Shown: positions 11,175 to 47,535 of the stretch, in pieces
Numbering within the stretch: the first letter of the stretch is position 1
Layout: each line of letters opens with the position of its first letter
Assembly: GCA_025677825.1 (NCBI GenBank)
Contig: JAIXMO010000022.1
Coordinates: forward strand, 405,742 to 469,741
Reading direction: 5' to 3'
DNA: 64,000 nt
Source: Helicostylum pulchrum
Lineage: Eukaryota; Mucoromycota; Mucoromycetes; Mucorales; Mucoraceae
The notes under the pieces: model-generated
Databases searched by the model: none
What the model was told of the DNA's origin: nothing
The model's input: only the letters and a program-made list of their open reading frames with translations
Position numbers and translations under genes: made by a program

Positions 11175-11825
11175 TGGGTGTAGGTTTAAATAAGATGGCT
11201 TTCTACCCACAATGTCAATGATTATGGCGTTATATTAAAACACCAATGCTGTTTGTCGTTGTTGCAATATTAGGTTGTGCCTTTTGTCCATGAGCTCTCT
11301 CAAGTGAAAAAAAAAGAAAAGCTGGGAGTATCTTTGTAGTGCATGAACTAATTCATTGTTTTCTGTTCAATCTCAGACCAATTCATGCCAACTTTGAATT
11401 GTCAGCAGTTGTGTGCTTTGAGCAAAGAAAACTATTAGTAGGTAAATAGCTAGTGAGTAGTGGACTACATCATCTAATATATTTCCTCAGGAAATACTAC
11501 TTTATTACAATGTTAATGAAGTTATTATATCAGACTGTAAATCGTGTGTTTGTATCGCCTATTTAATAAATTGAAAGATAGATAGTATTCCGAAACATGC
11601 ACTTTTTAACTGATTCTATGATAGACTTTATTAAAAAAAAGCTTCTTCATTTGAAGCAACTTGCTTTCGTACAAGAGACATTCAGTATAACAGTTGACTT
11701 AGTAATAGCTGATGATTCGCTCTCACAAAACAGTCACTCCTCCCTCGCCGCAGCAGCAATGGTATAATAAACAAAACAAAACAAAAAAAAGCTGGTTCTT
11801 CTTTATATTGTTAAATAAAAAGGAA

Positions 11826-13669
11826 ATGCCTACTTCAAAGCTCACGTAAGTAAAAAAAAAATTAAGACGCTTTTTTTTTTATTATAACTTGAGACTAATC
11901 TCTTTTTGAAATTAGCTTACAACAACAACAACAACTTCTTACCGCAGCCTGTTTAGCTGTACTTAACTCACCGGATACTGTGTATCCTGTTATGTGGACA
12001 CCTTTTGAACTTTTCGTTTTTAAGGCCCATAACTTTTATAAAAACCTGGTTTACTTTGCTTTAGCTTTTGCTATCGCCTTGTTCTCCTTGTTTGTCTCCA
12101 AATATAGCCTCATCTTTCTTGCCGTTACCTTGGGATTAGTAAGAATTTACTCTCTCGACGGCAAACGCGTCATTAGAGATGCTGCTCGTTGGTATTGGTA
12201 CGAATGTTCTGATAACCACGAGGGGGTTCGGGGGTCAAATCACGTTCCTTCTATTGATAATAGGGATAATAGCTGTTACTGTAGCACTCTTGGCGCAGAA
12301 GATGATGCTGGCTTATTATCCAAGTCGGATATTGATGGTTGCTGTTACTGTAGTAGTCTTGAAGGTGAAGATGCTGGTAGCCACAATTCTGGCGCCACCG
12401 GTCACTGTTACTGTAGCGCTCTTGGTGAAAAAGATGACGCTGGTGCCGGTGAGAGCAATTCCTGCTGTTACTGTAGTAGTCTTGAAGGTGAAGATGCTGG
12501 TGGGGTTGCTAGAGGTGATGATGCGATTGCAGAAGTAGGAGTAAGCAATGCTCATGTACCTGGAGAAACTGACTTGAGCGATGTTCATGGTGCGAATGAC
12601 ATCAATCTCGTCGATGGTGAATTTTTGGGATGCGTAGATACTAACTTGTTAGTATTAAATGCAGGGATTTCTGGTGACATTAATCCAGCATTTTTAGAAA
12701 CCAAGTTCTTATCTCCTCCTACCGAGAAGATGGATAATTTTAATACAGTTCTTGTATTTTATCCTTTTGTTGAAGTCGAAAAAGAATGTGGTGGTAGTAA
12801 CACTCCTTTTTCATATTTCAAAAATTATTCTAAGGTGCAAGTAGATTCGGTTCGTCGTTCTCGTTTACGAGTTCGTCGTTTAATCCGTTCTCGCCCTGGT
12901 GTACCTCGTTGTGCACGCCTTAGACCTCTCCGCTTGTCTAGCGATTCTTCTTTCCGTTGCTCTTCCTCTTTGGCTGAGTATATGGAAGTAGATAGCTTTG
13001 ATGATGAGTTGGAAAAGATGGCTAACTTTTGCGAACCAATGGATATTGACTCTTTTGAGGAAATGTCCGATAGAGGTAATGAACAGGAGTTAGTTGTTGG
13101 CAATTTTGGATCTTTTTCTTTTGGTTACGTACCAAACTTAAAAGAAGGCTCTTTTGAGCCTGTAGTCACTGGTGCTGGTTCACCAGTTGTATCTATACCT
13201 TTTACACCATCTTTTGGTGTATTTTCACCACCTTCATGTGGTGTACTTTTGCCACCATCTTCGAATGGTATATTTTTGAAGGAACCCGTTCCCTCAGATG
13301 GCGTACCTGTAGCGGGTACTAAATTTGAAACGTCTGTTTCCAAGGAGCGTGGGCTCACCCCTCTTCCTGAGCCTGTGGTTCAGGAAAATCTTGCCCCGGG
13401 AAAAGAAAACGTATCTGTTTCTTTGACCGAGGCAATTACTTCTTCATCTTCGAGACCTGCGATGAAGGTACCTGCTGCGGTCTTGAGAACAAGACCAATG
13501 ATTGCGTCTCCCAAGCCGCCAAGGCCAAGACCGACGTCGTCTTCTACCACTGCCACTACTTCTGCAAGACCTTTGGTAGAAGACCCATTCAATTCAAAGC
13601 CCTTGAATAAAATGCCTGTCTCTGGCATGAAAGTAAAGCCAACGGCTTCTACTTCTTCTTCTTTGTCGT

Positions 13670-13705
<36 letters not shown>

Positions 13706-13940
13706 AAAAGCAAAGCACTAAATCAATTTTAGATGCATTATTTGACGGTAAGATATATATATATATATTAAAAATTTAACTCTGGGTACTAAAAAAACAC
13801 GTGTTTATAATATAGACGCGGAAGAAGAAGAAGAGGAAGAAGAAGAACTCAAGAAAAAAGAGGAAAAGGAAGAAAAGAAGCACAATAAAAAAGTAGATGG
13901 CAGAAGAATAGTTCACCCTAAAGCTCGCATGATTAGATAA
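11826..13940 (+). CDS. Unrecognised membrane protein with CYCS repeats (repeat family gene, copy 1)
   Basis: Exons 11826-11845, 11916-13747 and 13816-13940 join in frame to about 658 residues. The ATG codes for MPTSKLTLQQQQQLL, and the splice sites GTAAGT/TTAG and GTAAGA/ATAG are clean. Visible layout: a Gln-rich N-terminus; a two-helix hydrophobic hairpin at about residues 50-85; four C-Y-C-S repeats at about 127, 150, 171 and 191, each followed by an acidic D/E-D-A-G unit; a strongly basic Arg-rich patch around residues 310-345; two related acidic blocks (MEVDSFDDELEKM and MDIDSFEEM); a Pro/Gly/Phe-rich segment; a Ser/Thr-rich segment with poly-Thr; and a Glu/Lys-rich tail ending KARMIR. 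It resembles no family I know. The hairpin suggests a membrane anchor. The very high identity to copy 2 argues for a recent duplication or gene conversion. Confidence 0.75.
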
Positions 13941-13962
13941 ACAATTTCTGCCATCTACTTTT
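13889..13962. repeat. Perfect 17 bp inverted repeat spanning the stop codon
   Basis: The arm AAAAGTAGATGGCAGAA (13889-13905) is exactly complemented at 13946-13962, leaving a 40 nt loop. The loop contains the last coding residues and the TAA at 13938-13940. The same stem-loop is present in copies 2 and 3. In RNA it would form a strong hairpin at the coding/3' UTR junction. Its role, if any, is unknown. Confidence 0.85.
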
Positions 13963-13989
13963 ATTCAATCCTTGTAAAAAAACAAAAAA

Positions 13990-14890
13990 CAAAGAAGAAG
14001 TCAAGAGAAACACAAATGAGCTCCTTTTCATGGAAAAACCAGCGGTAGAATATCAAGACAGGTATAATAAATGACACCCGGTAAATCATCACTCAGAAAT
14101 AGAGTATCAAGACAAATGTGGTGAAATCAGTTGTAGCAAAGCAAAAGAAACATCATAGCTGATACCTGGTTCAATTAGCCATAGCAAGCCAAGAAAAGAA
14201 ACATATCTGATACCTGGTTAAATCTGCAAGATAAATTTGAATGATATCTACCGTGTCAAAAATCAGCAAGAGAATGTCAAGACCAAAACCTCTTACCCTC
14301 CTTTACTATCTTACGAAAAAAAAAATCTAGATTTTTCCTTTGGCTAAACCACTTGAAAGTTACTTGAAAAATCAAAAGGCCTTTTGTTGTTGTGCCTTCT
14401 TAGGGGTAATGTTTACTTATTTAACAATATCACTGAAATGAGAAGCCAAAATATTTCATTGCTTCAAGATTTTCAAGATTGCAATCGTGAAGGAAAAAAA
14501 AGAACACTCACCACTGAATTACGAAGAATTGCTACAGATTCTCCTTCAAGATATTTATGATTGAACATTCTTGCTGATTAACAAGAAAGAGTTGAAACAA
14601 AACCATTCACTCTGTAATTTCAACCAAACTGAAATTACATCAAATTCATCAAATACCCGCTACAATATATCAAATAGGTAATGTCTACTAAAAAAAAAAT
14701 AGTTTCTGAACCACTCTCTCACTTTTGATCTTTAGGTAGTAGGAAGGAAATCATTATATTATTCAAGAAGCGGAGAAGAGTTGTCAATATTACACATGAA
14801 AACCATCTTTTTTAAAGAGGTAAGTATTCTTCAATCTGTATGTACAATATTAACGTTTTTTATTTAAAACAAGTACTATAGAAAGATGAA
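13990..14890 (+). repeat. Repeat-rich 3' flank with splice-like signals
   Basis: Short modules recur here: variants of ATCAAGACA, of ACCTGGTTAAAT, and of a TCAAG..TTTATGATTG block. Intron-like GT..AG segments occur at about 14,676-14,733 and at 14,820-14,881 (GTAAGT to CTATAG). The arrangement is conserved in all three copies. It may be a long spliced 3' UTR, a separate non-coding transcript, or decayed coding sequence. Confidence 0.45.
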
Positions 14891-14904
14891 AATTCGGCGT
14901 CAAG

Positions 14905-15096
14905 ATGGGCTATTCTTTCAAGGATCCAAATATCCCTTTTGCTCTCTCTCATGATCTGAGATCTCTCCACCAAAGAGGCATATATCACAAAACCAAGTTT
15001 ATAATCCTTCCTCTACTTATGTTATCTGGCAACAAGTATTCATTGTTGGTACCTTTTTGTAAAGAGATTGAGATGCCCACACTTCTAGACCTATAG
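14905..15096 (+). CDS. Small ORF in the repeat's 3' flank (copy 1)
   Basis: A 63-codon ORF begins MGYSFKDPNIPFALSHDL. A related ORF starts identically in copy 2. Copy 3 has a 2 bp deletion that breaks the frame after about 37 codons. It lies directly after an ideal 3' splice site, so its sequence may instead be part of a spliced exon in another frame. No family was recognised, and the broken copy 3 argues against strong coding constraint. Confidence 0.25.
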   Translation: MGYSFKDPNIPFALSHDLRSLHQRGIYHKTKFIILPLLMLSGNKYSLLVPFCKEIEMPTLLDL

Positions 15097-15196
15097 TTAA
15101 ACAGTTAAAATATTATATTAATAAAGTTTATACTATAGTCATATACCTTTCCCGTTGGCGTTTTTTCTTCTTCTTGAATGTGTAGATATAAATAAG

Positions 15197-15836
15197 ATGA
15201 AGCTTTTCTGCTTATCTTTTTTTTTTTCGTAAAAAAATAAACAAAATGAATACCTTTTTTTTTTTTTTTTTTTTGGTATATGAATATTAGGTATTACCTT
15301 TCTACATTTTGAATATCTCAGTACACGTTCAGAAAGAAAGCGCTCTTTTGCATGGCGGTTGATTTAAGAAGAGCAGTATCTTTTTGTACGAACATAAAAG
15401 AAAGAAACAGTGATTAATTTTTTTATTGGACTGATAAAATAGCGGGTCTATTTTCTCATGCGATCTATTTAACATGTCTGCAACTTGTTGTTACAACCCA
15501 AAAATGTCTCATGCGTCAGATATTTTTTTGCCTGAACGTGTAACAAGAAAAAGGAATTTCGCTTACGTTCCCGTTAACCGATAACCATTTTTTTTTTTGT
15601 AACTGACAATTTTATTTCTTATGTGAGCGATTTTTAAACTTTGGTATCTCAGTGATTTTCAAGCTATACCTTCCATTACTGATCCCCTTAAATCCTCATA
15701 ATATACGAAAGGAACAAAGATAACGAAAAAGTTGTCTAAAAGCGGACTTAATATACTTTTTTTTTTTTTTACGTTTTATCATTACACGAAACACTTTTTG
15801 GTCCCCTTCTTTTTACACATAAAACAGAAACAAAAC
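15197..15836. other. Intergenic region between repeat copy 1 and VPS16
   Basis: AT-rich, with T-runs. No ORF or RNA gene that I can support. The promoter of VPS16 presumably lies in the last few hundred bases. Confidence 0.5.
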
Positions 15837-18800
15837 ATGGCGCCTAACCCTACGTCTGACTGGACCGAACTTCACGTAAGTATATATACAACAATGAACA
15901 AGTCTCTCTTTGAGCTTCAAAACTAAACCACATTTTTGTTTGCTTAGGATCGTTTTTACAGGTAAAAGAAAGAAAAAGAACATGCTTAAAAAAAAGTTTC
16001 AAATTCATCTAATATTTTACAAAAAAAACTTATTAGAAAGCAAGAGATTTACTCCTTGTCATGGAACCAAACCGACTTGTCTAAGTTTATGATCTCGGGT
16101 GCACAATATGGTGGACCCATTGGTAAAAATGAAAAGAAAAAAAAAAAGCTACAGTTTTTTTTTATTAGTTACTAACCTTTGTATCGTGTAGCCATGATTA
16201 GAGATGACAAGAAAGTTTTATTGCTTCAGAAACAACAACCTATTAAACCTACTATTTACATGTACACCAGTGCAGGAAAACTTATTGAACAAATTCAGGT
16301 ACGCACAACTTTTTTTTTTTTTAAAAAAAAAATAATAAAAATAAAAAAGTGTTATTGAAAATGATGTATGTAGTGGGATAAAGGACGTATTGTAGCGTTA
16401 GGATGGACAGATCAAGAGCAACTGGTTGTTGTTACAGATGATGGGTCTGTTAGATTATATACTTTACACGGAAACTATACACAATTCTCTTTAGGAAAGG
16501 TAAAACACAATTTGGATTTACGTGTGTATATATATTTAACAAAATGATAAGGATGCAAAAAATGACGGTGTTATCGATTGTCAAATTTGGGGAGGAGGAT
16601 TAATAGCCATGACCAGTAAATGCCAACTTATATCCGTTACGAATTTTGAAGAGCCTCAACCGAAGCCCATGGCCGAGATCAACTTGGAAGAGCCACCTCA
16701 CAGTTGGACTGTGGTGCCGCCTCAATTTACGCTCAGTCGACATGTTGAAGTCTTGATCGCTACGGGATCAACTATTCTTGTTGTCGATAGTAAAGAAGCT
16801 ACTGATCAACACTTGACTCAGGGGCCCTTTACTAAAATGGTGGTTTCACCTAACGGTAAATTCTTGGCGTTGTTTACTTTGGATGGTAAATTATGGGTGG
16901 TGTCTACGGATTTTCAAAAGAACCTGTCAGAGTATGCAACAAAATCCAAGATCCCGCCTCAGCAACTCGTGTGGTGCGGTACGGATTCAGTTGTGCTGTA
17001 CTGGGATAAAATTGTATTGATGGTAGGTCCGTTTGGCGATTGGATCAAGTACACGTACGAAGACCCCATTTATCTTGCGTCTGAAATTGACGGCGTACGC
17101 ATTATCAGTAACGATAAATGTGAGTTGCTTCAAAAGGTGCCCGCTTCGACGGAAAAAATCTTTAAAATTGGGTCTACTGAACCTGCCGCCATGTTGTTTG
17201 ATGCGCTTGATCATTATGAAAGAAAGAGTCCTAAAGCCGATGAAAATATTCGTAGTATTAAGGCAGAGTTGGTAGAGGCGGTGGACAGTTGTATTGAAGC
17301 AGCCGGGTTTGAATTTCAGCATCAGTATCAACGTTCGTTATTAAAGGCTGCGTCCTTTGGTAAATGCTTTTTGGAAAATTACAATGCGAATAATTTTGTC
17401 GATATGTCACAGACGATTCGAGTTTTAAATGCTGTAAGGTTTTATGATGTGGGAATTCCGTTGACCTATGCACAGTAAAGTATATAAAGCCGATTGCTAA
17501 AAAGAAAAAAAAGGAAAAAAAAAATACAGTTTTTGACATTTTTTTTTTAATTTTAGATATAAGCGTCAAAGTCCAGATGTATTGATTGATCGTTTGATTA
17601 ACCGTAACAGTCATTTACTTGCTATTCGAATTGCAGAGTACCTGAAACTTCGTACGGATAAAATTCTTATTCATTGGGCTTGCGAAAAGATCAAGTCGTC
17701 TACAGAAGACGAAGAAAGTATTTGCAGAACAATTGTAGACAAGTTGGCAAAGAAACCAGGACTGTCGTATGCGGAAATTGCAAAGACTGCTCATGATGCT
17801 GGTCAGACGCGATTAGCTACCAAGTTGTTGGATTATGAACCTAGAGCTGCTGATCAAGTACCTTTGCTTATTTCGATGCAGGAAGATGAAACTGCATTAA
17901 TTAAAGCTATCGATAGTGGTGACACTGACTTGGGTATGTTTGTAGCTGTTTATTTTTGTAACTGTTTTTTATTTATTTTTTATTTCGTAGTGTACCTGGT
18001 TATTTTTCATTTGAAACGTAAATTACCTCTTGGAGAATTCTTTAGGATGATTAATAATAAACCCATGGCGTGTAATCTTTTGGAGGTTTATTGTAAAGAA
18101 CAAGATACGGAACTTTTGAAAGATTTCTATTATCAAGATGATCGGAGAATCGATAGTGCTAATATCGTATTATCTGAAGGTTTCAGTGAATTGGTAAAAA
18201 AAAAAAAAAAAAAAGCTTCCCTGATTGTCACTTTTTTTTTTTGGTACTCAATTTTTGCTCAAAATAGGATATTGCAGAACGTATCAAGAAACTCAAGATT
18301 GCAGGAAAAACGTACAGTGAACATCGTGAACAAGCATTTGAAGCCAAGGTAACTTTAATAAAAAAAAAAGGAAAGACATTTTATTTACTTTGTATTTAAA
18401 TTAGGCAGTGGATGAAGCTATTAAATTACTTCAGTTCCAACTCACACTTGAAAAAGATACCCAACAATCATTTACTGGACTTTCTACAAGTGAAACCATT
18501 TACAAGTGTACGACTCTTGGACAACATCATAAAGCTACCAAAGTCAAAACTGATTTCAAGATCCCTGATAAAAGGTAAAAATATAATGTATATATTTTAG
18601 TGTATACACATATTAAACCTTTTTTTTTTTTAAATAGATTTTGGTGGGTCAAATTGCGTGCTCTTGTTGAGGTAAGAGATTGGGAAACATTGGAAAAGTT
18701 GGCAAAAAGTAAAAAATCACCTATTGGTTACGAAGTAAGTACATCACACATACAGTATTTGGTAGTACGTACAGATAAATTAAAGTTTTTTTTTTTTTTT

Positions 18801-19128
18801 TTTTTTTTTTTTTCGTGTGTAGCCATTTGTTGAAGAATGTATTAAAGCAAAACAATACCAGGAAGCATCTAAATATATTCTTAAATGTGACCCACCTGTT
18901 CGACCTATGCTGTTTGTAAAAATTGGTGCGTTTAAAGAAGCTGGTGAACAAGCTTACTTGAATAAAGACGTAGAAGGTTTAAGGTAAAGTTATATATATG
19001 AATAGTACCACAATACTTTTTTTTATTGATTTCGTTGTTTTTGTTGTAGACAAGTACGAGCCAAATGTACAAATCATATTGTTGCACAAGAACTAGATTC
19101 TCTTCTGGCTCAACTCAATGCGAAGTAA
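15837..19128 (+). CDS. VPS16: Vacuolar sorting protein 16 (HOPS/CORVET core subunit)
   Basis: Thirteen exons join in frame to about 820 residues, close to the usual VPS16 length: 15837-15875, 15948-15961, 16037-16122, 16192-16298, 16374-16499, 16552-17474, 17557-17933, 17991-18193, 18268-18348, 18405-18574, 18638-18734, 18823-18983, 19050-19128. The N-terminal half is a beta-propeller opening [20 protein letters not shown] and including [10 protein letters not shown] and [16 protein letters not shown]. The C-terminal half is the alpha-solenoid, with [20 protein letters not shown] and the conserved [19 protein letters not shown]16 is a core scaffold of the HOPS and CORVET tethers and binds VPS33; it is needed for fusion at endosomes and the vacuole. 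The 14 bp second exon was accepted because it restores both frame and conserved sequence. The family call is secure. Confidence 0.95.
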
Positions 19129-19273
19129 ACTTGAAACTCATTTTGTTGTCGTTCAAAGCAGACACTGAGTCTAAATTAAAAACCTTATATATAAAAAATG
19201 TCGTTATTTTTTTTTTTCCGTTTTCTTTCTTTCTTTCTTTCCATTTTTTTTTTCTTTCTTCTTTCTTTTCAAA

Positions 19274-21083
19274 ATGAATAATCAACTGGAATTTGATACT
19301 AAATCAGTTATAGCAGGTGTGCTTATTATTCTTGCAACTGTTAGTGTCTTCCGTAAAGGATGGAATCCAACTCAATTTTTTAAAGTCGTGTGGTCAATAC
19401 TCCGTCACTGGAGTCAGTTCACAAAGGTCTGGTGATAAAATGATGTCTTTTGTTTTAAATAGCATGTTATTAAACTTTTGTAATAGAACTTATTTACGCT
19501 ATCTTTAACGACATCAGAGCAATCGAGATTTGAAGAGGAATTCAAGTACTTGATCGTGACTTCTTCTTTATTCAACGAAACACCTCAACAATCTACATTT
19601 GACTCGACAAGGAGGAGAAAGTTGGATTTAGATACGAATAAATCACTAACGGTCCAAGTGCTGTTTGTCAGTACATTAAATGTGATTATCAGCGTGGTTA
19701 TTTTCACGAAATTTAATTCTGTCTCACCATTGGTATTTACATGCTTAGTACCAGCTTATTTCACTACTTGTTACTTTCTTTACCGGCACCATGTAAAGTA
19801 TTAACAGCAGAGGGAAGGTTATTTTAATTTATATGGTACTAACTACATTTTTTGTTTTGTATAGAGACATGTACAAGTCCGCAGAATCCATGCATCAGCA
19901 CTAGATTCTATGCATAAAATGATATCCTTGTCTCAGGAAAGTGATGGCATCCTGATCCGGTTATTAAATCAGTTTCATTCCACATCTGATAAATTACAAC
20001 AACAAACATTAGGCACTTGTTTGTCTGCTCATTTTGAAACTTATACAGAACTTGTGTTCCTGTTACAGCCTTTGATCGATAGTGGCAACTTGACCACTTT
20101 ACGTGATATGTATAATGTAAACGGGGAAATACCTTCATTGTTGTTGGGATTTGATTCTCTTCAGTATAATATGGATGATATTGATTTGATATATTCAGTG
20201 ATTAGTTGGAAGCGCCGTGAGTACTTGTTGTACCTGTTGGCGTTGGATGTCATGTCGAACAATAGAACCAATAATCATTACGGAAAGAATTGGAGACAGG
20301 CTATTCAAGTCAATACAATGTTGGTACAAGAGTATAATCAATTTAATAAGAAATTACTTGATATTACAACTACTACTGCTAGTGAGTACATTTTGAACTA
20401 GTTACACTTTTTTATTGTTATTTTCTAATAACTTTCTTTATTTAAAAAAAAAAAAAAAGCTGAAAAAGTAGAAACTGTTTGTTCACCAACAGTAATTACA
20501 CCTGTACAACAAAAAGATAGTTCACCAAGTGCTTCATCAGATACTCGTTCACTTACTTTAATGCATCGTGTCTCTGCTCTTGAAAAGCATGTTGAAGATA
20601 TTCAAGCTAAGCTATTCTTATGTAAGCAAGACACCAAGTCACTTTCGTCCGGTCGAGGTACGCTGACAAAATAATTAAAAAAAAATAATATACTCAATTT
20701 ATCTCTATTTTTACCATCCCCCTTATTCAGTATCAGTACTAGGGTTAGAAAGAATGAGTAAACGATTTAATCATATTGATCAACATATTCGTCAACTATT
20801 AACACAATGGGAAGAAAGTAAAATGACATTAAATACACTATTAGAAGACGAACAATCAAAATTAACAACAATTGCATTACTACCTTCACCTCCTTCTTCA
20901 CCTCGTGGTAAATCATTTCAAGAAGAATCAATTCATTCTATTAATGAAGTGAGTCGAAGTAAAAGCTGTAGTGGTGGTGAATTTAATAATACCACCAACA
21001 GTTTACCTTCGTTGACTAAAAATAGATTAAGACGTATCCAGTCTTTGAAAACCAATAGCAGTAGAATTGCGGTTGAAAAATAA
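19274..21083 (+). CDS. Vezatin/Inp2-like (myosin-binding motif of peroxisomes) membrane protein
   Basis: Five exons (19274-19426, 19487-19792, 19865-20381, 20460-20657, 20731-21083) join to about 508 residues. Seen directly: an early hydrophobic segment (VIAGVLIILATVSVF); the stretch FEEEFKYLIVTSSLFNE; a predicted helix pair (VQVLFVSTLNVIISVVIF and a following hydrophobic segment); then a long helical region and a Ser-rich tail. This order matches the fungal vezatin-like family, in which yeast Inp2 recruits myosin V to peroxisomes. The assignment rests on layout and remembered family motifs, so treat the family as probable and the peroxisomal role as inferred. The first intron has an unusual donor (GTCTGG), but the join restores a long open frame. 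The gene starts 145 bp after VPS16 on the same strand. Confidence 0.65.
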
Positions 21084-21334
21084 GATATACCGCTTAAATT
21101 GAACTATAAATACACTACCTCTTACTTACTTTATTAAAATTAAATTATATGTACGCATGTGATGATGATACCACTGTCAAAAAAAAAAACCGAGATTTTT
21201 TGGTTTAAAAGTAAATGTTATAAAATACAAATAAAAAAGAAAGTTCCTAAAAACACAATAAGGAGTGAGTTAGACAGGTTTACTATACTTTTAACTCTTT
21301 TACTTTTTATGTACCCTCTTCTTCTTTAAAGAGA

Positions 21335-22080
21335 ATGAAAAAGATTCGAATATCTCGAGCGAAATTTGAAAATATTGTGTACCTAACACTGAATGTAATA
21401 AACATTTCAACTTATTTAATGGTATTTGCTGCATCTATTGTAAAGGCAAACCAAGGGACATTGGCTGACATCATTCAAGCCATTTATTGCACGTAAAAAA
21501 AAAACACAGAAAAAAAAACCCTTTCTGCTGTATTAAACATGTGTTTTTTTATTGTAGAATGATTAGCTTCTTACTTATCCTGCATGAATTTACGTCACCT
21601 GCATGGTCCCAAATGTATTTTGGTTTTCTAAGTATACATCGGGGTAAAAGTTTATTAATGTTATTGTGGGTGTATAAAAAATATACTGTATATAGTAAAC
21701 CCTTTTTCATGTAACTTCTTTTTAGTTTAGGTTGTCTTGTGATGTGTGAAATTGCATTTAATATCATCGTGGCTATTATAACATTTACAATTGGATTTGG
21801 ATATTTTATACTTTCTTTAATACCTGTATTACCTCCACCAAACGCCTTTTTAATTCATTGGAGAAATCACAAGGATTTTTGGGCAGAAGGATTGGATTTA
21901 GCTGTACCTCCTACTACTACAGTTCCTGCTGCTGCTGCTGCTGCTGTCACTCCCATGATGATGATGCCTCATCCGTCTGCCTGGCATCCTAATGCTTCAC
22001 TTCAACCCATGTATAATATCGAGTATTCTAAATTTCAGAATTATATAGTCGATGATAATAATAAAGTTGCGATTTATTGA
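21335..22080 (+). CDS. Four-helix membrane protein (possibly Tvp15/COPI-associated-like)
   Basis: Exons 21335-21492, 21558-21643 and 21731-22080 join to about 197 residues. I see four hydrophobic segments: IVYLTLNVINISTYLMVFAA, the region MISFLLILHEF..MYFGF, CLVMCEIAFNIIVAIITFTI, and GYFILSLIPVL. A short Ala/Met/Pro-rich cytosolic tail follows. The size and the four-helix plan with a short inter-helix HRG motif recall fungal Golgi Tvp15/COPI-associated proteins. I cannot confirm this from sequence alone, and a Mucoromycota-specific protein is equally possible. The third exon's acceptor was placed at the second of two nearby AGs because the first gives an immediate stop. Confidence 0.6.
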
Positions 22081-22578
22081 TCTTGTTACCTTTTAAGAGC
22101 ATATGGTACACTACAAAAAAAAAAAAAAAAAAATGCGGCACAATTCTTTTTCCCTCAGTAAAAAAAAAAAAACTGTATAGGAAGTAAGCGTTATATTTGT
22201 ATCAAACGATTTGGTGCACCATAAAAAAGACAACAGCCGGTTTTTTTATTCCTAATTTGAACGTCAAAAAGATTTTTTTTTGCAGCGAAAAAAAAAAAAA
22301 AAAAAAAAAAGTTTTAACAGGTACAAGTGTATATGATATCATTTAAAAGGGTGCGTTCATTTCTTTTTTTTATGCGCGTGCAGAAGAAAGAAAAAACGTT
22401 TCTTTTTTTACTATCTTTTTTTTTTTTTTTTTTTTTATAACGTGAGCCCCATATTATGCGTTTTATCAGTGCGCTTTTAAATTGTTTTTTTATTTTATTT
22501 TATTGCTCAGCTGAGATATTTTTTCTATCTTCTTCTTTCTTTCTTCTTTTGCAACTTTTTTTTTCTTTTTCTTTTAGT

Positions 22579-22703
22579 ATGAAAGCTCGTTCAAAGACAA
22601 ACAAAGTGTTGGATATTATTCTCTCTGAAGAAAAGTTTTACTTTCCAGGAGAAACCATTCGAGGTAAAAAAAAAAAGAGAGTTACATTCACATTTGTAAA
22701 CCA

Positions 22704-22740
<37 letters not shown>

Positions 22741-23989
22741 GAATTTACACATAAAAAAAAGGATCCATCATGGTAAAACCAAAGAGTTCAATCAAGGTGA
22801 ATCCAATTATAATAAAATTCTCTGGAGCGATATACATATCAGCCAAAGATAAAGAAGTAATTCCTTTATTTCAAACCTGTAAAACAATACCTATCAATGA
22901 AGGAAAATCAAAAGTCTTGGAACCAAAGTTGTATTCATTTCCTTTTGAATTCTTGGTACCTAATAATTTTCCAAGTGCAATGGATGTAAAGTACACCAAA
23001 AAAAAAAAAAAAAAAAAGCCTCGTATTATCGATTTAATTAACTTTTTTGTGTGTGTAATATAGTTTGGTAAAAATAAGACAACAAGGATTAATTACAAGC
23101 TGACAGTGATATTGGATAGACCAATGATGCCAGAAAGTTTATGTCCAAAGCTTGAATATCAAGTTTCGGTAATGGAATATGTTGATGTGACAAAAGATAA
23201 TTTTGTAAAACCGTTGGAGAAACAAAAGGAAGTAATGACTTTAAATAATGGAAAATGTCACGCAAAACTATCTGTTCCTAGAACTGGTTTCACAAGAGGT
23301 TATTATTATGTAATATCCCCCCTCCTATTAGAAAAAAAAATGCTAACAATTTTTATTTTTTATTTTAGGTGAGACGGTACCAGTAAATATCGTGGTAAAT
23401 ACATTTCAAAGTTTTGTAAAGAAGGAATCTCTTGTCATTGATCTTGTACGTAAAGTAAAGATACAAACATCCAAGTAAGATATTTTGCAGTAGTGATAAA
23501 GATTATACGTGTATACATATTAACCCAACCTTTCTAGAAACACGTTGGATGAAGAACATGTATTAAAGTCAAGTAAATTTGATTTGAATATTATTGGACC
23601 TTACAACTTTTCTCAATCGATTACGAGCCAAATATTAATACCATCCACACCTCCTACCATTCGATACAAGGACAGAGTGTTGCGTGTACACTACAAGATT
23701 CGAGCTCAATTATTAACTGAAAAGAAAAAGACACCTAATATCGTATTAGAGTTACCTATTGTGATTGGTACTTGGCCGAGAGCAGATGTACCTATTGACG
23801 ACGACGATGATGAAGATATTATACAAAACATGGGTGAATTAATGATCAGTGATGCTGTCGATGACGATGTTTGGATGCGACAACAAGAAGAATTAGAATT
23901 CACTCGACACTCACACAGTTCGTTTACTTTAAACAATACACCTTCCCCTACATCTACTATATCTATGAAATACTCTCAAAGTTACTACT

Positions 23990-24040
<51 letters not shown>

Positions 24041-24852
24041 CTAATAATTCTAATTCTAATAATTCGGCAGCAGCTGTGAAACGTTCTGGATCAAATAATT
24101 CACTTGGATCTGTTTCTTCTTGGAGATCTCAATCGACTTCGGATCCACGCCTATCCGCTACAACAAGCCCTACTTCCATCACTGGTAGCGTTCTTTCTAA
24201 TAATACTATACCCGACTATCAGCGCAATACCCTTGGATTTAAAATGTCAAATGGATACTTGAATCGATCTTCTTCGACGCCGGATTTATTATCCAATCCG
24301 CCTCCTACACCGTCTCCAACACTTCAGCAAAATACAAGTAACAATACAAGGGCAAGAGTCATTGATCCAACCATTCGATCTTCGTATTATGAACCGCAGA
24401 TGAATAATAGTAGTGGGTTGTCGCACAGGTCTACGAAATCATTACATTCTATTCATCATCCGTCACAACAGCAACAACAACAACATCGAAGAATAGGATC
24501 GGATGAGTTTAATGTATCACCTACTTCTTCTTTTTCAGTACCGCCTATTCCACAAAATAATGAACCGGATGTACCGAGTCATACACTGATGTTTTTATCG
24601 TCAAGTATGACACAACAACGGAGGACTTCGCCTCCTCGAATTATTACACAGCAAAGGAAATATATTGATTCACTGGATGAACCTTTTGATTCTGGATCAT
24701 ATCTCAACGATGATGATGAGGATGATGACGACGACGAAGATGATGATGAAGATTCTGATGATGATTTGTTTGCTATTATTGAAAAAAAGAAGAGAAGAGA
24801 AGAAAAGGAACAAAAAAGAAGACAAAGGATGATGTATACATTAACTGAATAA
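22579..24852 (+). CDS. Alpha-arrestin (arrestin-domain protein)
   Basis: Five exons (22579-22663, 22762-22985, 23064-23298, 23369-23474, 23538-24852) join to about 654 residues. The arrestin N domain is recognised by KFYFPGETIRGSIMVKP and the following beta-strand segments. The arrestin C domain is marked by the classic start GFTRGETVPVNIVVN and by SSKFDLNIIGPYNF. Such proteins act as adaptors that recruit Rsp5/Nedd4 ubiquitin ligases to membrane transporters for endocytosis. The C-terminal half is disordered: an Asn run from an (AAC)n tract at about 23,990-24,041, Ser/Pro-rich stretches, a Gln run, an Asp-rich block and a Lys/Arg tail. I did not find a clear PPxY motif. The third intron uses an atypical donor (GTTATT), chosen because it exactly restores the GETVPV motif. 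Confidence 0.88.
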
Positions 24853-24875
24853 AAATTATTATTTATTATTACATT

Positions 24876-26831
24876 TTATTCTTTTTCTTCATTATCACCA
24901 GGAAGTACAAACCCAAATTGGGTTAATATGTTACCAACAGGTCCTGGTAAACCTTGTTGACTCTTAAAACTTTCTAATACGTTCTTTACAAGGTTTAATT
25001 GAACATCTACAGGTGCATTTTCATCTTCTTGTTCTTCATTTTCTTCATTTGTTGTTAATTTGGCAAATGATCCACTGATTTTATCGTGGCTGGATATTTC
25101 TTGATCCATTTCTTGCATCACATCCGTCATATTTTCTTCCTCTTCTTGTTTAAATGATGATTCTCCTTTAAGTATACTCATAAATTTATCCATATCAAAT
25201 TTAATTGGACCTTGGTATTCATCATCATCACTATACTCTTCTTCTTTGTCTTCGTCGCTATCTTCATCATCATCATCTGATGTCATCTCTCTAGGAAACT
25301 CTACACCATCAATACCACTCTTCTTATTCTCTACAAAGTTTTCAAGGTTGGACATCATGGCTTCTAAATCCATACCACCATTCTCTAAATCATCGTCTTC
25401 GAAATCTTGTTTTAGATCATCCATCATGCTTTCCTTTATATTTCCCATACGCTTCATCAACATTTCCTCCAGTTGTTGAGGATCTACGTTCATCCAATCA
25501 TCCAATTCCTCACTATCCGTATTTTGGTCCAGCAGCAGCTGTAATTTTTCTTCAGAGTACTGTGATAAAAGGTCATCGATTCGTTTCCGTACGAGACTCG
25601 TACCGTTTGATAAAACTGAATCACTTCCTTTAAATGTATCATCATCGTCTACATCTATATCGTCTAACGAGACTACGCGTTTATCTGAATCTTGTTTTTT
25701 ATACTGCAAGTATTGTTCTTTCGATTGCTGCTGTAATAAGTTGTAGAGTTTTGATCCGGGTCTTTCAGATCGAAAGTAACCCAGTTTTGTCAAATGTGTA
25801 ATATAAGCCGTGTACTTTTTATCATGTTCAAAGTCATAAGTTTCGATATCGTCATTGCTGTTTCCTGTATCGTCTTCTGATATATGGTACAACATCTCCA
25901 GCCCACACGCTACTTTCATACCCAGTTCGGCATACTTGTACTGTCTCTTTTGGTTCATGGCAGGCAATCGAAACGGTTTAGGCGCATAAAACTTCTGGCT
26001 TACGGTTTGCGCGTATGTTGTCTTTGTAAACCTGACCACGGTTTCCACCGTGTTTACAGGAGAGAAAGTGCGCATCGATGCACATGCCTTCATTGAAATA
26101 GGGTCACGTAAATAAAACGCTTCCACTGCTAATGTAATTAATTGAGGCTCTGATAGTAATACAAATGCTGCTTTAGACGGTAATAAACATTTTGCTCGGT
26201 GGATTTCTTGTTGTGCTGCGGAAGGGTACTCGGAAATACGTTGGTTGATGGCGTGTTGAATGGAGTCGGATGCAGCAGGGCAGGTGTGTCGGACAAGGGG
26301 GATGGCTTTTTGGCGCAAGAGGTGTCCTGATGTAGGAACTTGCAAGATATCCGCTGGAGATTTGGGAAGTGGTATAATGTATACTTGGCCACGGTACATG
26401 TAGACGCGGTTCTCACTGTTGGACGGGTCCAGCCAAGAAGGTAATTCGAGTGCGGCTTCGATGAGTAACACGTCGCCGTCGTTGTCGCTGATGGATATCA
26501 CGGCGTCGGTGAGTTGTGAGGAAATGGTCTTTAGTAAGTAAACGATAAACCATTCATCGTTGAGACAATCGCCGAATCGAGTGATGCCGAATAGGAATGG
26601 GTAGCTAGGATCGTTGGATTGGTCGTAGGTGATGGAGAGATGGAACCGATCTTTGTGCCAAATGTAGTCCTTGATTAAAGGTTGGATCAGTGAATTGATC
26701 ATGGCAAGCGTGTCTTGTAAGTAGGAATGTGTGTCGGATTCGGTTTCTTTTGATGGCAAGTAAATTGCATATTGAACGTAATCGATTTCTTTGGCTGAAG
26801 ATCCTTTAAATACATCTTGTAAAGTGTCCAT
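24876..26831 (-). CDS. Ecdysoneless/SGT1 family protein (ECD)
   Basis: A single-exon gene of 651 residues. The N-terminal two thirds match the ECD/SGT1 family: VQYAIYLPSKE at the start, YIWHKDRFHLSI, ITRFGDCLNDEWFIVYLL, the acidic strand DNDGDVLLIEAALELPSWL, and ENRVYMYRGQVYIIPL. The C-terminal third is rich in Asp/Glu with several acidic runs, as in ECD proteins of animals and fungi. Family members are linked to pre-mRNA splicing (PRP8 assembly), cell-cycle control and, in yeast, to activation of glycolytic genes. The stop codon lies 23 bp from the arrestin stop on the other strand, so the 3' UTRs must overlap. The 5' end faces SED5 across 177 bp. Confidence 0.92.
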   Translation of the reverse strand: MDTLQDVFKGSSAKEIDYVQYAIYLPSKETESDTHSYLQDTLAMINSLIQPLIKDYIWHKDRFHLSITYDQSNDPSYPFLFGITRFGDCLNDEWFIVYLLKTISSQLTDAVISISDNDGDVLLIEAALELPSWLDPSNSENRVYMYRGQVYIIPLPKSPADILQVPTSGHLLRQKAIPLVRHTCPAASDSIQHAINQRISEYPSAAQQEIHRAKCLLPSKAAFVLLSEPQLITLAVEAFYLRDPISMKACASMRTFSPVNTVETVVRFTKTTYAQTVSQKFYAPKPFRLPAMNQKRQYKYAELGMKVACGLEMLYHISEDDTGNSNDDIETYDFEHDKKYTAYITHLTKLGYFRSERPGSKLYNLLQQQSKEQYLQYKKQDSDKRVVSLDDIDVDDDDTFKGSDSVLSNGTSLVRKRIDDLLSQYSEEKLQLLLDQNTDSEELDDWMNVDPQQLEEMLMKRMGNIKESMMDDLKQDFEDDDLENGGMDLEAMMSNLENFVENKKSGIDGVEFPREMTSDDDDEDSDEDKEEEYSDDDEYQGPIKFDMDKFMSILKGESSFKQEEEENMTDVMQEMDQEISSHDKISGSFAKLTTNEENEEQEDENAPVDVQLNLVKNVLESFKSQQGLPGPVGNILTQFGFVLPGDNEEKE

Positions 26832-32946: not shown

Positions 32947-35054
32947 TTATCTAATCATGCGAGCTTTAGGGTGAACTATTCTTCTGCCATCTACTTTTTT
33001 ATTGTGCTTCTTTTCTTCCTTTTCCTCTTTTTTCTTGAGTTCTTCTTCTTCTTCTTCTTCTTCTTCTTCCGCGTCTATATTATAAACACGTGTTTTTTTA
33101 GTACCCAGAGTTAAATTTTTAATATATATATATATATCTTACCGTCAAATAATGCATCTAAAATTGATTTAGTGCTTTGCTTTTTAGTAGTAGTAGTAGT
33201 AGTAGCAGTAGACGACAAAGAAGAAGAAGTAGAAGCCGTTGGCTTTGCTTTCATGCCAGAGACAGGCATTTTATTCAAGGGCTTTGAATTGAATGGGTCT
33301 TCTACCAAAGGTCTTGCAGAAGTAGTGGCAGTGGTAGAAGACGACGTCGGTCTTGGCCTTGGCGGCTTGGGAGACGCAATCATTGGTCTTGTTCTCAAGA
33401 CCGCAGCAGGTACCTTCATCACAGGTCTTGAAGATGAAGAGGTAATTGCCTCGGTCAAAGAAACAGATACGTTTTCTTTTCCCGGGGCAAGATTTTCCTG
33501 AACCACAGGCTCAGGAAGAGGGGTGAGCCTACGCTCCTTGGAAACAGACGTTTCAAATTTAGTACCCGCTACAGGTACGCCATCTGAGGGAACGGATTCC
33601 TTCAAAAATATACCATTCGAAGATGGTGGCAAAAATACACCACATGAAGGTGGTGAAAATACACCAAAAGATGGTGTAAAAGGTATAGATACAACTGGTG
33701 AACCAGCACCAGTGACTACAGGCTCAAAAGAGCCTTCTTTTAAGTTTGGTACGTAACCAAAAGAAAAAGATCCAAAATTGCCAACAACTAACTCCTGTTC
33801 ATTACCTCTATCGGACATTTCCTCAAAAGAGTCAATATCCATTGGTTCGCAAAAGTTAGCCATCTTTTCCAACTCATCATCAAAGCTATCTACTTCCATA
33901 TACTCAGCCAAAGAGGAAGAGCAACGGAAAGAAGAATCGCTAGACAAGCGGAGAGGTCTAAGGCGTGCACAACGAGGTACACCAGGGCGAGAACGGATTA
34001 AACGACGAACTCGTAAACGAGAACGACGAACCGAATCTACTTGCACCTTAGAATAATTTTTGAAGTATGAAAAAGGAGTGTTACTACCACCACATTCTTT
34101 TTCGACTTCAACAAAAGGATAAAATACAAGAACTGTATTAAAATTATCCATCTTCTCGGTAGGAGGAGATAAGAACTTGGTTTCTAAAAATGCTGGATTA
34201 ATGTCACCAGAAATCCCTGCATTTAATACTAACAAGTTAGTATCTACGCATCCCAAAAATTCACCATCGACGAGATTGATGTCATTCGCACCACGAACAT
34301 CGCTCAAGTCAGTTTCTCCAGGTACATGAGCATTGCTTACTCCTACTTCTGCAATCGCATCATCACCTCTAGCAACCCCACCAGCATCTTCACCTTCAAG
34401 ACTACTACAGTAACAGCAGGAATTGCTCTCACCGGCACCAGCGTCATCTTTTTCACCAAGAGCGCTACAGTAACAGTGACCGGTGGCGCCAGAATTGTGG
34501 CTACCAGCATCTTCACCTTCAAGACTACTACAGTAACAGCAACCATCAATATCTGACTTGGATAATAAGCCAGCATCATCTTCTGCGCCAAGAGTGCTAC
34601 AGTAACAGCTATTATCCCTATTATCAATAGAAGGAACGTGATTTGACCCCCGAACCCCCTCGTGGTTATCAGCACATTCGTACCAATACCAACGAGCAGC
34701 ATCTCTAATGACGCGTTTGCCGTCGAGAGAGTAAATTCTTACTAATCCCAAGGTAACGGCAAGAAAGATGAGGCTATATTTGGAGACAAACAAGGAGAAC
34801 AAGGCGATAGCAAAAGCTAAAGCAAAGTAAACCAGGTTTTTATAAAAGTTATGGGCCTTAAAAACGAAAAGTTCAAAAGGTGTCCACATAACAGGATACA
34901 CAGTATCCGGTGAGTTAATTACAGCTAAACAGGCTGCGGTAAGAAGTTGTTGTTGTTGTTGTAAGCTAATTTCAAAAAGAGATTAGTCTCAAGTTATAAT
35001 AAAAAAAAAAGCGTCTTAATTTTTTTTTACTTACGTGAGCTTTGAAGTAGGCAT
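32947..35054 (-). CDS. Unrecognised membrane protein with CYCS repeats (repeat family gene, copy 2)
   Basis: Exons 35035-35054, 33143-34965 and 32947-33074 join in frame to about 656 residues. Every feature of copy 1 is present: the Gln-rich start, the hydrophobic hairpin, the four CYCS repeats, the Arg-rich patch, the two acidic MDIDSF-type blocks, the Ser/Thr region and the Glu/Lys tail. Observed differences include a Ser-to-Ala and a His-to-Arg change, Leu-to-Phe in the Pro/Gly region, Pro-to-Ser, Gly-to-Arg, Ala-to-Val and a shorter poly-Thr run. All frames and splice sites are intact, so both copies could be expressed. The hairpin around the stop is conserved (arms 32,925-32,941 and 32,982-32,998). 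Confidence 0.75.
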
Positions 35055-35707
35055 TTCCTTTTTATTTAACAATATAAAGAAGAACCAGCTTTTTTTTGTT
35101 TTGTTTTGTTTATTATACCATTGCTGCTGCGGCGAGGGAGGAGTGACTGTTTTGTGAGAGCGAATCATCAGCTATTACTAAGTCAACTGTTATACTGAAT
35201 GTCTCTTGTACGAAAGCAAGTTGCTTTAAATGAGGAAGCTTTTTTTTAATAAAGTCTATCATAGAATCAGTTAAAAAGTGCATGTTTCGGAATACTATCT
35301 ATCTTTCAATTTATTAAATAGGCGATACAAACACACGATTTACAGTCTGATATAATAACTTCATTAACATTGTAATAAAGTAGTATTTCCTGAGGAGATA
35401 TATTAGATGATGTAGTCTACTACTCACTAGTTATTTACCTACTAATAGTTTTCTTTGCTCAAAGCACACAACTGCTGACAATTCAAAGTTGGCATGAATT
35501 GGTCTGAGATTGAACAAAAAACAATGAATTAGTTCATGCACTACAAAGATACTCCCAGCTTTTCTTTTTTTTTTCACTTGAGAGAGCTCATGGACAAAAG
35601 GCACAACCTAATGTTGCAACAATGACGAACAGCATTGGTGTTTTCATAACACGACATGAGCATCAACATTGTGGGTAGAAAGCCGTCTTATTTAAACCTA
35701 TACCCAA

Positions 35708-36539
35708 GAAAAAAAAAGAATAAAAGGATATTTGATACTTAATGGTATATTGAATTGTTGTATTAAATTACTCCCTCTCTCTACCTCTCTATATGTCAGT
35801 TTAATTACTACCCCTTTGTTTTATGAGTAATATCGATTGATAAGACACTATTGAAAACTAAACAATTTCTTCATAACTTAAATAGATATGCCTCAAAATT
35901 AGTTGAAAACTTACAATCGGATACCCACTTAAATTAAAAAAAAAACAACTTGCTTGCATGAAATAAGTTGGAACGACTTGAGTATACTTGAAACAAACTG
36001 CATCACAAATACATCATCATGATTACACAGATCGCATGAGTAGGAGTGACCCTATTTATCAACCCAATTATTTCCTTTTTTTTACAAGTATTTTTCTTTT
36101 TGTTTTTAATTTTTATGTTCTCTTCATCCATAAAAGAAATATGAACGTTTCGTTTTTTTTTTTTTTCTGAGTGTGTACCAATGCTTTCATTTTGTTCTTC
36201 TTCTTCTTTTCTTCTATATGGTCTGGTTTACCATAGCTCTTTGCAGGGAAAGACTCTTGGAAATAAATCCAAGTATTCCAAAGTGATTTTACCGCTCATT
36301 GTTTTTGATTATAAAAATAATGTAAAGAGTAAGGACAACTAAACTGAAAGCTCCTCTCCGAGTATCGTTAAACAAGATACTTTTGGTGCATCAGTTCAAC
36401 ATTCTATCATTATAATAAACCAATAATTCCGACTTCGCCATCCCTTCCATTAATATGCAACTGCGAGCACTTTAAAAATTTTGGACAGAATATCGAGGTA
36501 ACTATCACGTTTTATTACAATTTTTAAAAAAAGACATCA
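35708..36539. other. Intergenic region between repeat copy 2 and KEX2
   Basis: AT-rich sequence with no ORF I can support. Confidence 0.5.
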
Positions 36540-44509: not shown

Positions 44510-46448
44510 TAATTTTGCATGATTTGTTTACTATTTACTAAAAGGAAAACTATATCTTCTTGAAAAAAAGTAGCTAAATCTCTGAGAAATTATTATGCAA
44601 CTTGTATTGTTCCTGGTAACTAATGTCTTTGGTACCTTTATACAAACGATCCTTTTAATCTATAAATGGGATATTTAATATAATGATTTTACACAGAGTA
44701 CTGATATAAAAGTAAAATGATTTATTCTCCCTTTAAAACAAATGCATGTTTTCATTATACAAACAATTTATGCAAGTTCTTTTCTCTCCCAGAACCAAAA
44801 AAGACGCAAACTCAACCTCATTTAACAACAATGAATATAATGATTAAAAGTAGTAGCAATTCAATAATACCTTATAGTAATTGTCATTACGGGTAGAAAC
44901 TGTTGTAAATAAAGACGATTTCGAAACCACCTTATTTATATCTACATTCAAGAAGAAGAAGAAAAAAAAAATACAAACGGGAAAGGTACACGACTATAGT
45001 ATAAAACTTTATTAAAACGTAAAATTTTAACTATTTAACTAGATCTAGTTTAGGCATCTCAATCACTTTATATAAAAAGACGGCAAGTAGATCCAAAGGT
45101 CGCAAAAAAAAGGCACCAACAATGAATACTTGTTGTCAGATAACGGAGGTAGAGGAAGGATTAAACTTGGTTTTTTGATATATGCCTCTTTGGTGGAGAG
45201 ATCTCAGATCATGAGAGAGAGCAAAACGGATATTTGGATCCTTGAAAGAATAGCCCATCTTGACGCCGAATTTTCATCTTTCTATAGTACTTGTTTTAAA
45301 TAAAAAACGTTAATATTGTACATACAGATTGAAGAATACTTACCTCTTTAAAAAAGATGGTTTTCATGTGTAATATTGATAACTCTTCTCCGCTTCTTGA
45401 ATAATATAATGATTTCCTTCCTACTACCTAAAGATCAAAAGTGAGAGAGTGGTTCAGAAACTATTTTTTTTTTTAGTAGACATTACCTATTTGATATATT
45501 GTAGCGGTATTTGATGAATTTGATGTAATTTCAGTTTGGTTGAAATTACAGAGTGAATGGTTTTGTTTCAACTCTTTCTTGTTAATCAGCAAGAATGTTC
45601 AATCATAAATATCTTGAAGGAGAATCTGTAGCAATTCTTCGTAATTCAGTGGTGAGTGTTCTTTTTTTTCCTTCACGATTGCAATCTTGAAAATCTTGAA
45701 GCAATGAAATATTTTGGCTTCTCATTTCAGTGATATTGTTAAATAAGTAAACATTACCCCCAAGAAGGCACAACAACAAAAGGCCTTTTGATTTTTCAAG
45801 TAACTTTCAAGTGGTTTAGCCAAAGGAAAAATCTAGATTATTTTTTTCGTAAGATAGTAAAGGAGGGTAAGAGGTTTTGGTCTCGACATTCTCTTGCTGA
45901 TTTTTGACACGGTAGATATCATTCAAATTTATCTTGCAGATTTAACCAGGTATCAGATATGTTTCTTTTCTTGGCTTGCTATGGCTAATTGAACCAGGTA
46001 TCAGCTATAATGTTTCTTTTGCTTTGCTACAACTGATTTCACCACATTTGTCTTGATACTCTATTTCTGAGTGATGATTTACCGAGTGTCATTTATTATA
46101 CCTGTCTTAATATTCTACCGCTGGTTTTTTCATGAAAAGGAGCTCATTTGTGTTTCTCTTGACTTCTTCTTTGTTTTTTGTTTTTTTACAAGGATTGAAT
46201 AAAAGTAGATGGCAGAAATTGTTTATCTAATCATGCGAGCTTTAGGGTGAACTATTCTTCTGCCATCTACTTTTTTATTGTGCTTCTTTTCTTCCTTTTC
46301 CTCTTTTTTCTTGAGTTCTTCTTCTTCTTCTTCCGCGTCTATATTATAAACACGTGTTTTTTTAGTACCCAGAGTTAAATTTTTAATATATATATATATA
46401 TCTTACCGTCAAATAATGCATCTAAAATTGATTTAGTGCTTTGCTTTT

Positions 46449-46484
<36 letters not shown>

Positions 46485-47535
46485 ACGACAAAGAAGAAGT
46501 AGAAGCCGTTGGCTTTGCTTTCGTGCCAGAGACAGGCATTTTATTCAAGGGCTTTGAATTGAATGGGTCTTCTACCAAAGGTCTTGCAGAAGTAGTGGCA
46601 GTGGTAGAAGACGACGTCGGTCTTGGCCTTGGCGGCTTGGGAGACGCAATCATTGGTCTTGTTCTCAAGACCGCAGCAGGTACCTTCATCGCAGGTCTTG
46701 AAGATGAAGAGGTAATTGCCTCGGTCAAAGAAACAGATACGTTTTCTTTTCCCGGGGCAAGATTTTCCTGAACCACAGGCTCAGGAAGAGGGGTGAGCCC
46801 ACGCTCCTTGGAAACAGACGTTTCAAATTTAGTACCCGCTACAGGTACGCCATCTGAGGGAACGGGTTCCTTCAAAAATATACCATTCGAAGATGGTGGC
46901 AAAAATACACCACATGAAGGTGGTGAAAATACACCAAAAGATGGTGTAAAAGGTATAGATACAACTGGTGAACCAGCACCAGTGACTACAGGCTCAAAAG
47001 AGCCTTCTTTTAAGTTTGGTACGTAACCAAAAGAAAAAGATCCAAAATTGCCAACAACTAACTCCTGTTCATTACCTCTATCGGACATTTCCTCAAAAGA
47101 GTCAATATCCATTGATTCGCAAAAGTTAGCCATCTTTTCCAACTCATCATCAAAGCTATCTACTTCCATATACTCAGCCAAAGAGGAAGAGTAACGGAAA
47201 GAAGAGTCGCTAGACAAGCGGAGAGGTCTAAGGCGTGCACAACAAGGTACACCAGGGCGAGAACGGATTAAACGACGAACTCGTAAACGAGAACGACGAA
47301 CCGAATCTACTTGCACCTTGGAATAATTTTTGAAATATGAAAAAGTTGTGTTACTACCACCACATTCTTTTTCGACTTCAACAAAAGGATAAAATACAGG
47401 AACTGTATCATAATCTTCTATCTTCTCGACAGGAGGAGATAAGAGCTTGGTTTCTAAAAATGCTGGATTAATGTCACCAGAAATCCCTGCATTTGATACT
47501 AAGTTAGTATCTAAATAAAACGTGTACCAAAAATT
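44510..47535 (-). repeat. Dispersed gene-bearing repeat, copy 3 (5'-truncated)
   Basis: Same orientation as copy 2. It contains the conserved 3' flank and the 3' two thirds of the gene, and it shares an extra outer flank (44,517-44,930) with copy 2. Recognisable similarity to copies 1 and 2 ends near 47,535, in the middle of the coding region. The outer direct-repeat motif is present only on the 3' side (about 44,930). Confidence 0.8.
46223..47513 (-). pseudogene. 5'-truncated copy of the CYCS-repeat gene (copy 3)
   Basis: Two exons remain (46407-47513 and 46223-46338). The frame is open from the truncation point to the normal stop. It keeps the Arg-rich patch, acidic blocks, Pro/Gly segment, poly-Thr and Glu/Lys tail. 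The start codon, membrane hairpin and all CYCS repeats are gone. The 3' intron and the hairpin around the stop are intact. Without a promoter or start it is most likely a pseudogene, although a short in-frame extension upstream is open. Residue changes are scattered, and the open frame suggests the truncation is not ancient. Confidence 0.75.

Follow-up and report, generated by a model that had tools for sequence, protein, structure and literature searches.

A lineage-restricted gene family of Helicostylum pulchrum with mosaic copies, probably shaped by ectopic gene conversion

A repeated gene unit and its copies

We analysed a window of 64,000 nucleotides of the mucoralean mould Helicostylum pulchrum, the right end of contig C84 (405742-469741 of 469741 bases; genome 32.2 Mb), which contains a repeated unit built around a protein-coding gene; coordinates without a contig name are those of the window. 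Comparison of the window with itself by the Basic Local Alignment Search Tool (self-BLAST) aligned copy 1, 11142-15058(+), with copy 2, 35734-31820(-), at 97.4% identity over 3935 columns. It further aligned 31511-34246 of copy 2 with 44797-47513 of copy 3 on the same strand (96.1%), and 12635-15058 of copy 1 with 47513-45107 of copy 3 (97.7%). The E-values of these pairs were 0, far beyond chance, and this all-against-all comparison upheld the repeat reported in a preliminary description of the stretch. Copy 3 is truncated at its 5' side: the match stops at 47513, and everything 5' of about 12635 in copy-1 coordinates is missing.

The preliminary description had counted three copies. A DNA search of the genome with the repeat revealed at least 36 matching pieces and brought the following set together; such counts are lower bounds by the search tool's own statement.

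11142-15058, + strand: copy 1, comprising the 5' region, the gene and the 3' region that form the core of the unit, from self-BLAST and the genome-wide copies
31820-35734, - strand: copy 2, inverted relative to copy 1, from self-BLAST; gene at 32948-35054, 656 amino acids, intact
45112-47513, - strand: copy 3, from self-BLAST and protein search; 3' region and a gene remnant at 46224-47513 that lacks the first part of the gene; annotated protein P0004
C1:135501-139443, - strand: near-full copy C1_139, from the genome DNA search
C1:159316-163295, + strand: near-full copy C1_159, from the genome DNA search
C1:265663-269567, - strand: near-full copy C1_268, from the genome DNA search
C122: further copy, 80-83% identity, from the genome DNA search
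C84:367 kb (kilobases), C159, C119 and C85: partial copies or relics without the full gene, from the genome DNA search

A protein search of the genome with the annotated protein P0001 found at least seven coding loci (three on C84, three on C1 and one on C122), besides two short fragments on C96 and C88. With a Mucor flavus protein as query, the same seven loci and the C96 fragment were recovered.

The exon structure of the copy 1 gene matches P0001:

11826-13940, + strand: copy 1 gene, three exons (11826-11845, 11916-13747, 13816-13940), 658 amino acids, intact

The protein carries a hydrophobic N-terminal stretch, four cysteine-rich repeats and an acidic and basic tail. Among the seven coding loci the gene is intact in copies 1, 2 and C1_268. 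The same single base is deleted early in exon 2 of both C1_139 and C1_159, the C122 gene is shifted in exon 3, and the copy 3 gene has no start. Where only a few amino acid differences between copies 1 and 2 had been described, the count came to nine substitutions and four one-residue length differences.

Relatives of the protein came from no species other than H. pulchrum, M. flavus and Thamnidium elegans: nine proteins by single-sequence search and 11 by profile search, with only the candidates sharing most words being scored (7994 and 7993, respectively). Pfam gave no family for any of the five proteins scanned, a PDB sequence search with one protein gave no solved relative, and neither Rfam at gathering scores nor a transfer RNA search gave a match. 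The gene appears to be lineage-restricted and fast-evolving, found so far only in a few related moulds. AlphaFold2 on 11 sequences returned a poor model (mean predicted local distance difference test score 30, predicted template modelling score 0.17), in which helices were confined to residues 8-23, 35-65, 69-108 and 623-641, two of them long and N-terminal with little else. We infer that the family protein is probably membrane-anchored and largely disordered.

On average the coding sequence is constrained. The ratio of nonsynonymous to synonymous divergence (dN/dS), obtained with a Nei-Gojobori script, was 0.49-0.63 over the whole alignment for eight of nine pairs and ranged from 0.22 to 1.51 in single regions, which suggests weak purifying selection. 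We also considered a second gene in the 1.1 kb 3' of the first. This region was treated as non-coding, the longest stop-to-stop frames in nine copies spanning only 55 to 76 codons; the longest frame is visibly the same in four of the nine (copy 1, C1_139, C1_268 and C84:367) and not in the others, and a short conserved frame is possible there. Copy 1 has no open frame longer than 131 amino acids other than the gene.

Mosaic identity among the copies

Identity between copies 1 and 2 changes abruptly along the unit. With edge identities computed on homologous stretches only, it is 90.2% at 11142-11310, 99.3% at 11311-14300, 96.3% at 14301-15057 (28 mismatches in 752 bases) and 89.6% at 15058-15199 (14 in 135). 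The body differs from these three edges, taken from 5' to 3', with Fisher p = 7e-12, 1e-8 and 4e-11, and delimits the following segment:

11311-14300, + strand: putative conversion tract of copy 1, edges approximate; 21 mismatches to copy 2 in 2980 aligned bases

On either side of this segment copy 1 has other close relatives. Its 5' edge is nearer to C1_268 (161/167, 96.4%). At 14301-14700 it is nearest to copy 3 (397/399, 99.5%), as against 380/395 (96.2%) for copy 2 and 97.7-98.2% for C1_268, C1_139 and C1_159. Its 3' edge is nearest to the C84:367 relic (139/142, 97.9%), and copies 2 and 3 are identical (100%) in the 200-base-pair (bp) bin 15100. Copy 1 thus has different closest relatives along its length, a pattern that a single duplication would not produce; ectopic homologous recombination, most simply gene conversion, would account for it. 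Differences from the three C1 copies are likewise clustered: 178 of the 228 sites that distinguish copies 1 and 2 from them fall within 851 of the 3517 aligned columns (bins 13400-14200). Relatedness among the paralogues is mosaic along their length, and their outer flanks, at separate places in the genome, are for the most part unrelated; both features are sought in a dispersed gene family that converts ectopically.

A second annotated protein set of the species, tagged HPULCUR, was compared with these copies. We read it as that of strain KT1b, which was sequenced with PacBio HiFi reads (PMC11385716); the tag itself is absent from the text of that paper. The set holds at least four family proteins: HPULCUR_007147, 007150 and 007202 share a contig of 759,483 bases, and 006930 lies on a second one; 007147 and 007150 are three gene numbers apart. 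Copies 1 and 2 differ at 13 positions, and at these P0001 (HPULCUR_007147) combines states of both copies. The C-terminal part of P0008 (HPULCUR_007150) has 19 copy-1-type positions, 11 C1-type and nine of neither type, and the corresponding counts for copy 3 here are 43, 0 and 0. This difference may be protein-level evidence of strain-specific exchange.

Several observations weigh against a history of constrained copies exchanging sequence by conversion. The dN/dS of copy 1 and copy 3 is 0.89, one region of that pair accounting for the value of 1.51, and the broken copies C1_139 and C1_159 are included among the dN/dS pairs. Synonymous divergence (dS) between copy 1 and C1_268 rises from 0.037 before to 0.347 after position 13250, but in the control pair copy 1/C122 it also rises, from 0.219 to 0.494; the 3' part of the gene thus diverges faster generally, and part of the contrast is not due to exchange, the speed-up being about twofold in the control versus ninefold for copy 1 and C1_268. 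The longest identical run was significant in all ten pairs against 2000 site permutations (p 0.0005 to 0.011), yet for copies 1 and 2 this run (13856-14151) lies where the C1 copies differ, so that the test speaks for mosaicism of the family and not for exchange within that pair. The relatedness of the copies also violates the independence that the tests assume. Recombination-driven duplication inside pre-existing repeats, or crossovers, could give mosaics without conversion. As for the second protein set, the difference before residue 461 is smaller (P0004, 10 copy-1-type and five C1-type positions; P0008, six and nine), the orthology of P0008 and copy 3 rests on an odd start shared with P0004 and on the gene numbers, and the annotation of P0008 continues beyond the end of exon 2.

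Flanking repeats and inverted pairs

Two dispersed repeats, B and E, flank the gene:

9936-10746, + strand: block B, 5' of the copy 1 gene; belongs to a dispersed repeat that measures about 1.5 kb elsewhere
11142-11330, + strand: promoter-like 5' region with TATA-like TTTAAATAAG; resembles repeat E weakly and has the orientation of the downstream E
15053-15199, + strand: repeat E, short form, 3' end of copy 1
31302-31789, - strand: repeat E, 3' end of copy 2
44563-45077, - strand: repeat E, 3' end of copy 3

Six loci have block B on the 5' side of the gene or of what is left of it (copy 1, C1_139, C1_159, C1_268 with its edge only, C122 and the C159 relic), and no open frame of 80 codons was found in the three B loci fetched. 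Repeat E occupies the 3' side at eight loci (copies 1, 2 and 3, C1_139, C1_159, C1_268, the C159 relic and C84:367). It is short at copy 1 and C84:367, and the identity of the copy 1 short form to the E of copies 2 and 3 is about 80% by BLAST, or 90% when gaps are left out. At least 14 further places match E over 239-467 bases, in addition to shorter pieces, and one measured pair is 96.5% alike. In the C159 relic the coding part is gone and the 5' block is fused directly to the 3' block.

The 5' regions were compared with the E of C78 and of copy 2, rather than each with its own 3' copy, and were 59-71% alike over 64-237 columns (E-values 0.002 to 1.6e-12). A long terminal repeat (LTR) retrotransposon was rejected on this divergence and on the lack of a long frame besides the gene in copy 1. 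The preliminary description had seen no transposase, LTR or terminal inverted repeat. This holds for the unit, but the weakly similar direct repeats and the dispersed families at its flanks had been overlooked.

In a tree of 22 sequences, the 3' E of copies 2 and 3 and of the three C1 loci formed one clade (0.93), five 5' regions formed a group of their own (1.00), and copy 1 with C84:367 formed a third (1.00). Eight of nine solo E copies were separate (0.97); the ninth, C57, and the C159 relic stood beside the gene-linked group with weak support (0.36 and 0.42). The grouping means that in five copies the 3' repeat moved together with the gene, and E or B might have served as homology arms.

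These repeats are also found in other arrangements. Directly 3' of C1_268 lie inverted pieces of B (C1:264829-265275); the edge of B also terminates the 5' side of this copy. On C24 two halves of E stand in swapped order 2.3 kb apart (169980-170292 and 172625-173306); they break at CAGGAAC, which is also the end point of another E copy, as if E consisted of two separable modules. Block A (window 9243-9655) is a further dispersed repeat of 410 bp, present at about 20 places in the genome, mostly 85-88% alike, at least six of them no more than 11 kb from a contig start.

Could the unit be a non-autonomous mobile element, moved as a block by an enzyme encoded elsewhere, with B or E perhaps as its ends? 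Seven coding loci and relics spread across several contigs would fit such an element, as would B at six loci and E at eight, both repeats being themselves dispersed. We nevertheless regard it as unlikely. A core of about 3.9 kb common to copies 1 and 2 was confirmed, but homology does not end at 11175 and 15200 as first described: in some other copies it runs left to about 9930 and right to about 15550 through the dispersed-repeat blocks. The left and right limits of the unit vary among copies, contrary to the constant ends expected of an element, and do not support the suggestion of a new class of non-autonomous element. No target-site duplication was noticed in junction alignments inspected by eye only. 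The absence from copy 1 of any open frame above 131 amino acids besides the gene, the average purifying selection on that gene and the distinctness of E in five gene copies from eight of the nine solo copies compared also argue against an element. On present evidence, the repeated unit is probably not a transposon.

Between copies 1 and 2, which point towards each other, lies a block of other genes:

15200-31270, no strand: spacer between inverted copies 1 and 2, about 16 kb, from VPS16 (as named in the preliminary description) to RRP45, from self-BLAST

Its size agrees with that first given, and the inverted copies might mediate inversion of this VPS16-RRP45 block, as the preliminary description suggested. 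Short runs aside, nothing in the spacer is repeated within the window, and the genome-wide search covered its two ends only. Homologues of RRP45 were found, the best match being a cluster named after T. elegans. Elsewhere in the window, short local direct repeats at 52236-55064 (74 bp at 84%, 38 bp at 97%) are unrelated to the repeated unit.

A second inverted pair, within C1:135501-163295, is formed by C1_139(-) and C1_159(+), about 20 kb apart and 95-100% alike in bins 11100 to 15300. The early one-base deletion common to both shows that a broken copy, too, was duplicated or copied over. Outside the gene family, repeat B on C124 is inverted at 89301-90750 and 94220-95669 with 99.86% identity over 1450 bp, and between the two stretches are about 3.5 kb that contain frames resembling genes. 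The B sequences of the three loci compared, by contrast, have an identity of 81-84%. Inverted pairs were examined in these families alone, and we claim no rate.

Had copies 1 and 2 arisen by a very recent inverted segmental duplication and exchanged nothing since, their 97.4% overall identity on one contig and the nine 200-bp bins in which identity rounds to 100% would be explained. We give this little chance, since the 99.3% identity of the body drops to about 90% at either edge, closer relatives of copy 1 exist there, and at 14301-14700 copy 3 rather than copy 2 is the nearer one. Near-identical inverted blocks are known to cause assembly errors, but repeats collapsed or placed twice are a hardly credible explanation here: 48 of 390 polymorphic sites separate copies 1 and 2, whose flanks also differ, copy 3 is truncated, the second annotated set has no fewer than four family proteins, of which two lie near each other, and strain KT1b was sequenced with HiFi reads.

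Interpretation and comparison with known systems

We propose, with a probability of roughly 0.78, that the window carries members of a lineage-restricted gene family which spread by ectopic duplication and whose copies are homogenised by ectopic gene conversion. Both processes were among the options first put forward, and the mosaic identity supports them. The unit would be a protein-coding gene with its own promoter-like and 3' regions, belonging to a small dispersed family; its copies would have been born by ectopic (segmental) duplication that carried flanking repeats along, and would later have exchanged sequence by ectopic gene conversion, including between inverted pairs on one contig. 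From the identities we infer conversion, as opposed to other homologous recombination, as the mode of exchange, and also the direction of transfer: the body of copy 1 would recently have been made near-identical to that of copy 2, both edges keeping other affinities.

What looked like a new class of repeat may instead illustrate clearly how an orphan gene family in Mucoromycota evolves in concert. Judged by titles, literature searches on Mucorales yielded nothing on gene conversion in such a gene family and nothing on meiotic drivers. With its inverted pairs this mould could supply a naturally occurring test system for ectopic conversion and for inversion. The gene itself is a candidate for a lineage-specific function that evolves fast and may be selfish.

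Miniature inverted-repeat transposable elements and other non-autonomous DNA elements resemble repeats B and E in being dispersed, B being without an 80-codon frame in three loci. They differ from the gene-bearing unit, which lacks constant ends and has no clear terminal inverted repeats.

Palindrome P6 of the human Y chromosome undergoes arm-to-arm gene conversion, according to PMC3723533. The pairs described here are similar in that inverted, near-identical copies appear to be kept alike by multi-kilobase conversion, whereas their arms carry a small dispersed gene family and the spacer holds other genes, including RRP45.

The wtf genes of Schizosaccharomyces pombe offer a further comparison. 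PMC11497594 describes non-allelic conversion, pseudogenes and an association with dispersed repeats, and direct outer repeats at both gene ends are proposed there as relics of landing sites. The H. pulchrum genes likewise form a multi-copy family, here of putative membrane proteins, with pseudogenes, apparent ectopic conversion and both dispersed and direct flanking repeats. The differences lie in the protein and the gene. No wtf protein occurred among the relatives, the 11 matches being from Mucorales only, and no Pfam family matched in the five proteins scanned; these comparisons are not head-to-head with wtf. The two-isoform design of wtf, with the toxin start inside intron 1, is not evident in the H. 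pulchrum family, and the M. flavus proteins P0005, P0006 and P0009 have no counterpart of the methionine that exon 2 encodes near residue 33 of P0001. Unlike those of wtf, the flanking repeats here are not LTRs of a known retrotransposon. In its genome dynamics the family appears to work like wtf; membership of wtf is not shown. As a long shot, by analogy, it might be a selfish family of independent origin and with a different protein that behaves in the genome as killer meiotic drivers do (with rapid turnover, decay, ectopic conversion and spread with outer repeats), in which case repeat E would be a living example of the landing sites postulated for the early spread of wtf.

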